DNA of 31,734 nt. Source: a virus. The notes under the pieces were generated by a model that was given only the letters and a program-made list of their open reading frames with translations, ran no database searches and was not told the DNA's origin. Within the stretch, counting starts at the first letter, position 1; every line of letters begins with the position of its first letter. Shown here piece by piece: positions 3,222-15,557 of this stretch. The position numbers and the translations under genes were made by a program. The DNA lies in the IMG/VR virus record IMGVR_UViG_3300047172_000291, positions 1 through 31,734 of that record, one strand, 5' to 3'.

Positions 3222-3748
3222 AAGCGATCACCCTCATGCAGCCGTGGGCCAGCCTGATCATGATCGGGGCCAAGCGATACGAGACGCGCAGTTGGATGAC
3301 GCATTATCGCGGTCCGCTGGCGATCCATGCATCGCTCCGTTTTACCCTTGCCCACCGCAGCCTTTGCCGCACGGAGCCCTTCGCGACCGCCCTCCTGGGC
3401 AATGATGACCTTCCACTCGGGTGCGTGATTGCTGTGTGCGATCTCGCTGCCGTGTTTCCAACCTCCAGTGATGACGATTCGCTTTTCAGCGGCCTCTTGG
3501 GTGACGAGTGGCCGGAGAGCGAGTTGGCATTTGGAGATTTCTCGCCAGGGAGATTTGCCTGGCACCTAAAAAACATCCGGGCGCTTGAAAACCCGATCCC
3601 GGCCCGCGGAGCGCTGGGCTTGTGGGATTGGGATGACACTGCGCTCGGGCTTCTGGACTGCACCACCAATGAAAAACAAAAACATACCCATCCAATACCG
3701 TCAGGGCGACGTGCTCTTAATCAGGGCAGATCGTTCTCACTCCGCTAA
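3218..3748 (+). CDS. ASCH-domain protein (PUA-like fold)
   Basis: 176 residues. The first 45 residues carry the classic ASCH signature: L-M-Q-P-W-A-S-L-I-M-I-G-A-K-R-Y-E-T-R-S-W, then Y-R-G-P-L-A-I-H-A-S. The domain closes near residue 140 with ARGALGLWDWD, the usual end of these proteins. ASCH domains share the PUA-like fold; some bind RNA or modified nucleosides, and one group (YqfB) hydrolyses N4-acetylcytidine. The specific substrate here is unknown. About 26 residues follow the domain and overlap the next gene by 80 bases, an unusual tail that may reflect loss of an earlier stop codon. Confidence 0.85.
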   Translation: MKAITLMQPWASLIMIGAKRYETRSWMTHYRGPLAIHASLRFTLAHRSLCRTEPFATALLGNDDLPLGCVIAVCDLAAVFPTSSDDDSLFSGLLGDEWPESELAFGDFSPGRFAWHLKNIRALENPIPARGALGLWDWDDTALGLLDCTTNEKQKHTHPIPSGRRALNQGRSFSLR

Positions 3749-3998
3749 ATCCAAGCGGATCAAGCCCGAGAGCGGGCGCCTCATTCTTGCCCGTGGCGAG
3801 GCCACCGGACACCATCACAGCGTCATCGAAGATGATGCCGAGCTGATTCAGGAGGGCGAACGCATGCTCCTCTGCGTGACGCGCGAGACCGAGCTGCGCC
3901 ACCAGGAGCATGGAGCAATCGTGGTGCCTCCCGGCGTCTATGAGGTCACGCGCCAGCGTGAGTACAGCCCAGAGGCGATCCGCAACGTCCAGGATTGA
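3669..3998 (+). CDS. Small conserved 'GDVLL' protein
   Basis: 109 residues from the ATG at 3669; an upstream ATG at 3585 would only extend into the ASCH gene in another frame. The sequence I-Q-Y-R-Q-G-D-V-L-L-I-R near the start, a central G-E-A-T-G-H-H-H-S-V-I block, and H-Q-E-H-G-A-I-V-V-P-P-G-V-Y-E-V followed by R-Q-R-E-Y-S-P near the end match a small unnamed family I recall from phages and from actinobacterial and cyanobacterial genomes, often next to DUF6745 proteins, as here. It is predicted mostly beta with a histidine cluster (HHH near residues 49-51) that could bind metal. Biochemical role unknown. Confidence 0.8.
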   Translation: MKNKNIPIQYRQGDVLLIRADRSHSAKSKRIKPESGRLILARGEATGHHHSVIEDDAELIQEGERMLLCVTRETELRHQEHGAIVVPPGVYEVTRQREYSPEAIRNVQD

Positions 3999-4003
3999 GC
4001 GCC

Positions 4004-5329
4004 ATGGCCCGCAATCAGTTGTTGGAGGATTTCACTGCGGCTTGCGACTACCCCGGCCGCCTGGATGTCCAGGCGGTCGAGGGGGCGCTGGGTCGGTATC
4101 TGAAGGCGCTCGGAGTGGAGCGCACGATTCGACGGCTCGATGCGTCGTGGGAGATCGAGACAGAGCCCTCGTTGCTCGCTTATGTTAGAGACGTGGCGGG
4201 AAAAATACCGGCCCGCGCTGCCCTCGCTGCCCTCGATACCCGCGCTGCCCTCGCTGCCCTCGATGCCCGCGATGCCCGCGCTGCCCTCGCTGCCCTCGAT
4301 ACCCGCGCTGCCCGCGATGCCCTCGATACCCGCGATGCCCGCGATGCCCTCGATACCCTCGCTGCCCGCGCTGCCCTCGATACCCTCGCTGCCCGCGATG
4401 CCCTCGCTGCCCTCGATACCCGCGCTGCCCGCGATGCCCTCGCTGCCCTCGATACCCTCGCTGCCCGCGATGCCCTCGCTGCCCGCGATGCCCGCGATGC
4501 CCGCGATGCCCGCGATGCCCGCGCTGCCCTCGATGCCCGCGATGCCCGCGATGCCCGCGCTCTCCGCCGCTTCGCGGCGTGGTGTGTGCAGGCCGGTGGG
4601 TGGTGGTGGAGATTTGAGCTATCGTTTCTTTCCACGACTCACATCGGCGCCGTGCAGCTCGGCAAAAAAATCGAATGGGCTGCGGCCCTCTATGATGCGT
4701 ACCTGGCCGGCGGCTGGTTCCTCCATTTCACGGCGGATACGCTTTACTGGGTCTCAAAGCCCACCGTTCACGTCGAGCAAGACGGACGGAACTGGCGCAA
4801 CCGCCGGCTGCATTGCGAGACCGGTCCGGCCATCGAGAGCGATGTTGAGAATGTTTATTACTGGCATGGCGTGATGGTGCCGGCCTTCGTTGTCACGCGA
4901 CCGGACTGGATCACGGTCAAGCACATCGAGACCGAGACCAATGCCGAGGTCCGCCGCATCATGATCGAGCGGTACGGCACCGCAAAATATCTCCAGGACA
5001 CCGATGCGAAGGAGATTCATCGCGACCGCTTCGGCACGCTCTACCGTAAGGAGCTGGCCGGGGATGAGCCGATTGTGATGGTGCATCTGCTCAATTCCAC
5101 TCCGGAGCATGACGGCACCTTGACGCGGGATGAGGCGATGGCTGTCTTCGCGTCCGATGCGGTGGTGTGCGACGGGGCGGCGATGCGCACCCTGGCCGAA
5201 ATGCCGGCGGATGTGCGGTTCAAGGATTACTTCCTGCGGGTACCACCGGATATTCAACGCTCGCGCCAGGCCGTGGCGTGGACATGGGGCAAGGCCGAGG
5301 AGGAATACGCTCCCTGCTTTGAGAGCTAG
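4004..5329 (+). CDS. DUF6745-like protein with 38-unit tripeptide repeat domain
   Basis: 441 residues from ATG 4004; a TTG at 3995, coupled to the upstream stop, is an alternative start. Residues about 1-70 form a helical head. Residues about 72-185 are 38 tandem tripeptides of form (A/D)(A/T)(L/R). Residues about 240-440 resemble DUF6745: paired Trp/Tyr in [44 protein letters not shown] and a closing Y-F-L-R-V-P-P ... A-V-A-W-T-W-G. DUF6745 has no established function. The repeat domain is probably helical, with frequent D and R at positions 1 and 3. Lies in a cassette with the GDVLL, ASCH and methyltransferase genes. Confidence 0.8.
4217..4558 (+). repeat. 38 x 9-bp coding minisatellite
   Basis: Thirty-eight in-frame 9-bp units, each made of codon GCT or GAT, then GCC or ACC, then CTC or CGC. 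Variation occurs at only three single-base positions per unit and always changes the amino acid; third codon positions are invariant. ACC occurs only after GAT. By unit type I count 14 D-x-R, 10 AAL, 8 D-x-L and 6 AAR. Two other frames across the array also remain open. Because units are 9 bp, gain or loss keeps the reading frame. Recent expansion and shuffling of units is the simplest explanation. Confidence 0.95.
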
Positions 5330-15053: not shown

Positions 15054-15557
15054 ATGAGTAAAAAAACCATCCCGCAGCAAATTGCGGAAAGCGGCGCGAT
15101 GCTGGCGGCGCGCGATTCGGCGATGCAGACGCCGGATGAGGTTCGCAAGGCGTTCCTCGGGCGGCGGCGCTCGGTGGGGCCGGTGTATGTCGAGCCGTTC
15201 TCGCTGGGCATCCTGTGGCTCTTTGAGGAGATCAAGCATCCGCTCAATGAAGGCCGTGAGCCGCTGCTCGATGCCAAGGGTGAGCCTGTGCTCGATGCCA
15301 GGGGTCAGCCGGTGCCGCAGCCGCTCTCGGCGCGGGATGTAGCGCGGGCGATCTTTATTTTCCACGACTCAGAGGGAGCGGCAGAGGCGCTGGCGGAAGG
15401 GGTGCAGACCTTCGATGCGGCAGCGGTGGCGCTGGTGAGGCAGATCGACGTGCAGTGGATCGTGAAGATCAACGAGGTCATCAACCAAACCTTTTCGGAG
15501 GGGCTGGCCACGCTACCAGGGGCCGGCGGCTCAAACCCTCCCGAGACCGGCTCCTAG
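15054..15557 (+). CDS. Tail assembly chaperone, short product (lambda gpG-like role)
   Basis: 167 residues. In long-tailed phages this gene makes a short chaperone and, by -1 frameshifting near its 3' end, a longer fusion; both coat the tape measure during tail assembly. Evidence: position right before the tape measure, an overlapping -1 ORF with no good start of its own, and a proper slippery heptamer. Residues about 25-60 (V-R-K-A-F-L-G-R-R-R-S-V-G-P-V-Y-V-E-P-F) and the helix A-R-A-I-F-I-F-H-D look like the typical chaperone core. A short ALDAKGEPVLDARGQP-type internal repeat lies at about 68-84. Confidence 0.8.
   Translation: MSKKTIPQQIAESGAMLAARDSAMQTPDEVRKAFLGRRRSVGPVYVEPFSLGILWLFEEIKHPLNEGREPLLDAKGEPVLDARGQPVPQPLSARDVARAIFIFHDSEGAAEALAEGVQTFDAAAVALVRQIDVQWIVKINEVINQTFSEGLATLPGAGGSNPPETGS

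Follow-up and report, generated by a model that had tools for sequence, protein, structure and literature searches.

The Array Gene and Its Neighborhood

The window analyzed here comprises positions 1 to 31,734 of IMG/VR virus record IMGVR_UViG_3300047172_000291. Genes for Gam, a Mu F-like protein, protease I, the gpT head protein and portal mark the source as a Mu-like phage. The gene of interest lies at 4004..5329 on the + strand and encodes a 441 aa protein, although translation could instead begin at an in-frame TTG at 3995. The product has three parts, all read from the + strand. First is a conserved N-terminal domain (4004..4210) with the consensus EACNYPGxLDExxVExxLxxYLxALGV. Next is a tandem array of 9-bp units. 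The C-terminal part (4562..5329) contains a DUF6745 domain (PF20530) at residues 234-373, scoring E=2.7e-37 and 128.5 bits against a Pfam curated cut-off of 27. The domain is widespread, and our literature search found no paper on it.

Immediately 5' of the array gene is a small gene of 107 aa (3675..3998, + strand; YRQGDVLL...GEATGHHH...QREYSPEAIR; phrog_27831). Cellular DUF6745 genes are preceded by a small gene homologous to it (E=6e-20 and 3e-19), and judging from this homology, the pair probably constitutes one module. The small-gene motif is present at 13 of 22 phage loci. The DUF6745 genes of Deinococcus, Methylobacterium and Streptomyces adjoin genes of the STM4011-STM4015 type, and the bacterial pair, recognizable by the GEATGHHH motif in its small gene, is found beside the uncharacterised STM4011-STM4015 radical-SAM cluster. 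Elsewhere in the window, a 24 bp direct repeat in 2.5 copies occupies 15256-15315.

The Array in the Window

Tandem Repeats Finder (TRF) places the array at 4211..4559 (+ strand), and by the reading frame its last unit ends at 4561. The consensus is RCC CKC GMT, encoding [A/T]-[R/L]-[D/A]. A first-pass annotation made from the sequence had reported 38 units from 4217; the repeat is as described, but it begins 6 bases earlier, at 4211, and has 39 in-frame units. An array of 39 copies is not a product of chance. Only six codons are used: GCC 32 times and ACC 7 at the first position of the unit, CGC 21 and CTC 18 at the second, and GAT 22 and GCT 17 at the third. The bases that differ are G/T for Arg/Leu, A/C for Asp/Ala and G/A for Ala/Thr. 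As had been noticed at first pass, there is no synonymous variation, each residue being written by a single codon at its position in the unit.

The first-pass description of the units as shuffled holds for the most part, with a single clear departure. Repeated words of units are no longer than in shuffled arrays (longest 4 versus 3.5, p=0.43), but all seven Thr units come directly after an ALD unit (hypergeometric p=2.9e-6). As read from the array, this linkage is a mark of block duplication. The Thr units themselves vary at both of the other positions, occurring as TRA, TLA and TRD.

Collection of Homologous Arrays

The absence of third-base changes had originally been taken to argue against neutral divergence. 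A freshly expanded array would likewise be without synonymous changes, so homologues were needed beyond this one array. A profile of the DUF6745 domain built from four phages retrieved 25 viral loci on 24 distinct contigs, and all 24 have an array at the same place. Further arrays were added using two DNA patterns, one from the DUF6745 domain and one from the array. Removal of duplicates left 48 distinct DUF6745-linked arrays. Thirty-two of these were found through the domain and are therefore not selected for array sequence; since units were delimited by residues only, there was also no selection against synonymous variants.

Unit counts come from short-read assemblies, and 12 of the 25 profile-found contigs end inside the array. 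Three IMG/VR contigs (L097/L127, L099/L109 and L085/L105) have both ends inside it, as if an otherwise closed genome had been broken there and nowhere else; at these contigs, the array probably exceeds every read in length.

Codon Variation Within and Between Arrays

Within arrays, two bases of the nine stand out. Third positions carry a minority base in 0.77% of cells in the 32 domain-found arrays (1,164 units), as against 38.7% for the second base of codon 2 and of codon 3. In 31 of the 32, these two (bases 5 and 8) vary more than any of the other seven. Over all 48 arrays (5,001 codons), single-step codon variants number 22 synonymous and 1,305 nonsynonymous. Third-position changes are thus not accumulating at normal rates; had they been, the first-pass claim would have been refuted.

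Between arrays, the third bases do differ. The first codon is GCC, GCA, GCG or GCT, the Arg codon is CGC, CGG, CGA, CGT, AGA or AGG, and the Asp codon is GAC or GAT, in 12 combinations. At least 22 third-base changes are required on the DUF6745 tree, the backbone of which is weakly supported; exchange between phages may contribute to the changes of combination. The codon for the hydrophobic partner of Arg is in most cases one G-to-T change away from the Arg codon of the same array (CGC/CTC, CGG/CTG, AGA/ATA, AGG/ATG, CGA/CTA, CGT/CTT), so it is Leu in arrays with CGN codons, Ile in those with AGA and Met in those with AGG. A few arrays have other partners: Val (GTC), or an extra Gln, His or Ser at the Arg codon. 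Each three-residue unit therefore carries two charge switches, Arg(+)/Leu-Ile-Met(0) and Asp(-)/Ala(0), either of which is a single base change in whichever codon its array uses.

We considered whether selection on codon usage or on a DNA motif keeps the codons uniform, and rejected it; the third bases differ between arrays, and the Arg codon of an array can be missing elsewhere in the same gene. In L052, AGA occurs 41 times in the array and at none of the 11 Arg codons 3' of it in the gene; in L010, AGG occurs 24 times in the array and at none of 16 Arg codons on the 3' side.

Recent neutral expansion would account for the lack of synonymous variation in any single array, if a short seed block already held both switches and the array is too young to have collected mutations. 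The mixture of states would then not be maintained by anything. In its favor, block duplication is seen in the Thr linkage in the window and in words longer than in shuffled arrays in 9 of 37 arrays. The collection as a whole argues strongly the other way, and we regard neutral expansion as quite unlikely. Neutral turnover treats the nine bases alike, and when it was simulated, 0-5% of arrays showed the pattern seen here. When a third-base variant sweeps an array, the neighboring second base would usually be expected to go with it, yet none of the 32 domain-found arrays is monomorphic at either switch despite the many third-base replacements. A single third-base combination across lineages would have favored one old expansion, and 12 were found. 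Homogenization has repeatedly fixed one codon set per array and, in the domain-found arrays, never one switch state, which suggests that the mixture is maintained. The argument that first rested on missing third-base changes in one array, to which recent expansion was always an answer, is stronger in this comparative form, where the same two dimorphisms persist from phage to phage across the replacement of third bases.

A biased or directed mutational process, such as G:C to T:A transversion or a template-driven system, might make the switches with no selection on the protein. Arg to hydrophobic (G to T) and Ala to Asp (C to A, which is G to T on the other strand) could indeed belong to one transversion class. 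But the same transversion at third positions (GCC to GCA, CGC to CGA) would be synonymous and is almost never seen, and the switches hold the same codon positions across the 12 third-base combinations. We consider such a process very improbable. We give as little credence to an assembly artefact in which short-read assembly collapses units and hides variants. Many contigs do break in the array, three of them at both ends, and unit counts may be affected. Collapse would not, however, strip third-base variants selectively and leave second-base variants at 39%, and L018 and L019, from different samples, have an identical run of 32 units.

Turnover of Length and Order

Array length and unit order change between close relatives, as the first-pass annotation had proposed. 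L069 and L073 share 99.5% identity along some 7.3 kb and have 32 and 51 units, respectively; the difference is one exact block of 19 units bounded by a repeated 5-unit word. The reading frame is always kept, which had also been claimed. L087 and L125 are 92% identical in their DUF6745 DNA, and their arrays cannot be aligned, L087 being cut by the end of its contig. Neither order nor number is common to the diverged homologues; if both had been, this too would have refuted the first-pass claim. The array is thus a variable-number tandem repeat, with 39 units in the window and a copy-number polymorphism between L069 and L073 as given by short-read assemblies. Turnover is not instantaneous, since L018 and L019 share their run of 32 units. 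The array was also suggested to generate variants of the protein, and this is possible; it is unproven, given that the arrays hardly differ in composition and that it is their order and length alone that change.

Composition and Order of Units

The composition of the arrays varies little. Across 27 domain-found arrays, the hydrophobic share is 0.38 (sd 0.10, with 0.08 expected from binomial sampling) and the Asp share is 0.61 (sd 0.09, binomial 0.08). Compositions therefore cluster nearly as tightly as binomial sampling, with no drift to 0 or 1, which is a further point against neutral expansion. The mean net charge is -0.04 per unit (40 arrays).

Order is close to random, with hydrophobic units weakly spaced. 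In the domain-found arrays, their autocorrelation is r=-0.15 at lag 1 (z=-3.8) and r=+0.07 at lag 7 (z=3.1). We entertained an amphipathic-stripe code as the main rule and dropped it, because autocorrelation at 6 units is absent and the spacing is merely weak. Pairing of Arg and Asp between units in salt bridges was likewise dropped; no clear cross-correlation was found. An order with no lag-6 signal has no helical stripe, and thus the arrays do not specify a particular coiled-coil or hairpin interface. With composition nearly constant and order near random, selection appears, on the evidence of these sequences, to act on the mixture of units and not on their order.

The main competing form of selection is diversifying specificity, in which the order of charges would be a private pattern for self-association or partner recognition, favored for being different, as in the fungal HNWD repeats. 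Order and length do differ even in close relatives, the switches turn charge on and off, and homogenization together with selected codons is documented in the Podospora WD40 repeats (PMC1805685). In other array types of the DUF6745 family, too, the residues that vary alter the charge: D/G and R/G/W in L035, and G/E/R/W in L042. Against this, a nearly constant composition and a near-random order are what is expected if composition alone matters; the close pairs are too few to give a turnover rate, and there is no candidate partner to name. We judge diversifying specificity to be rather unlikely.

On balance, we think that the arrays are probably the outcome of concerted evolution together with selection on the composition of an alanine-rich, charge-mixed, probably helical spacer whose length and order are nearly free. 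Units would be copied and lost in blocks by unequal recombination or slippage. Such block copying would cause a third-base variant either to be lost or to spread to every unit, which is concerted evolution. Selection at the protein level would repeatedly restore or retain about 60% Arg and 40% hydrophobic residues at one switch, about 60% Asp and 40% Ala at the other, and a net charge near zero. Less certainly, the helix might form a stalk or an antiparallel hairpin and so fix how far apart the two end domains lie, or it might present a charged surface of low specificity.

Predicted Structure

AlphaFold models were made for the window protein (with 21 sequences) and for the 75-unit homologue L078 (with 18 sequences). 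The former has long helices at 70-124 and 135-200 and the latter at 81-200 and 206-316, each with a low-confidence turn in the middle of the array. Confidence in the array is moderate (pLDDT about 45-80), with its minimum at the predicted turn, so the helical hairpin or stalk is to be taken as a model only. The helical spacer proposed at first pass agrees with the long helices in both models, and the helix itself is a prediction. A hairpin or stalk with length scaling by unit number would tolerate any in-frame indel. Sequence and fold searches of the PDB found no solved relative or similar structure, and a viral fold search matched just two DUF6745 proteins, one of them from Microcystis phage LMM01.

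Comparison with Known Repeat Systems

Collagen-like (Gly-X-Y) repeats, such as those of BclA, occur in bacteria and phages as 9-bp in-frame units of variable number with a spacer or filament role. They have glycine at every third residue and form a triple helix. In the phage arrays, every third residue is alanine (or Thr), not glycine, so they are not collagen-like. Neither do they look like the targets of a diversity-generating retroelement: the switches are G/T, A/C and G/A and hence not adenine-specific, and no reverse transcriptase was found among the window proteins scanned. A literature search for phage helical or alanine-rich repeats returned nothing matching.

Two close parallels are in Podospora anserina and Escherichia coli. 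The WD40 repeats of HET-D, HET-E and HNWD evolve in concert with variable copy number, and a few of their codons are positively selected (PMC1805685). The phage arrays resemble them in that units are homogenized, copy number varies and a few codons are kept variable; repeats are more alike within than between genes at neutral sites (0.77% within versus 12 combinations between), and there is an excess of nonsynonymous differences at defined codons (1,305 versus 22 as raw counts). The differences are that the HNWD units are WD40 beta-propeller repeats serving fungal allorecognition, whereas the phage units have three residues and are probably helical. Domain II of E. coli TolA, in the accessible part of one account, is a long alpha-helical connector that joins two end domains and contains tandem repeats in frame, with a copy number that varies and contracts by RecA-dependent recombination (6.9e-5) (PMC3477136). 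The phage array is likewise an in-frame repeat between end domains, and the connector that it would form is predicted to be helical. TolA is an envelope protein with 15-mer units, for which that part of the account reports no two-switch code; the phage array has three-residue units and two switches. Repeats within a protein have been reported to show, as a general rule, accelerated divergence from one another (PMC5120217). What is new here is a unit of three residues with two charge switches, and the fact that these recur on a dozen codon backgrounds.

These arrays amount to a natural experiment in repeat evolution, in which the silent bases have been replaced in dozens of phage arrays while each array keeps the same two switches at much the same frequency as the others. 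The family separates copying from selection unusually sharply, and it opens to test the idea that a protein may be under selection for its composition while order and length are unconstrained. It is also a starting point for work on the widespread DUF6745, a domain that travels together with its small partner gene in phages and bacteria.

Similar Arrays in Other Proteins

Distant DUF6745 proteins have 12-bp arrays in the same region. Gene 38 of the Mycobacterium prophage prophiGD102-1 (L035:2258-2811) has 46 units of [D/G]QL[G/R/W] directly before DUF6745; there is no synonymous variation, and its D/G and R/G/W switches change charge. The Caudoviricetes cta39025 protein UOF77368 (L042:2590-2940) has 29 units of SSL[G/E/R/W], in which 10 of the 12 bases are invariant and the other two switch among Gly, Glu, Arg and Trp. 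A Nocardia farcinica plasmid (L043:817-1270) also has a 12-bp array before DUF6745, with more bases varying than in those two. It seems to pass through two reading patterns, GPGVGPG-like and then DQVRAQV, and is possibly frameshifted. The 12-bp arrays thus share their place with the array in the window, and the two phage cases vary only at nonsynonymous bases, but the units have four residues and other amino acids. Either independent origin or deep divergence could account for this.

A more far-reaching idea is that of a phage-wide, continually rewritten charge barcode, in which the order of three- or four-residue units in DUF6745 arrays specifies recognition of self or of a partner and is kept diverse by selection. 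Homogenization would keep the array ready for copying, and each phage lineage would have its own pattern. We hold this to be unlikely.

The cellular DUF6745 proteins examined are without an array. In those of Deinococcus (L036:3359-4369) and Methylobacterium (L047:1874-2896), the N-terminal half, in the array's place, is leucine-rich-repeat-like. Three further cellular matches (L006-L008) were discarded as composition matches to unrelated repeat proteins, in genomes with no DUF6745 match. Four phage proteins unrelated to DUF6745 (L121, L129, L134 and L139) have A-[R/L/W]-[D/A] arrays near the C-terminus, and in L129 and L134 the switch is Arg/Trp (CGG/TGG).
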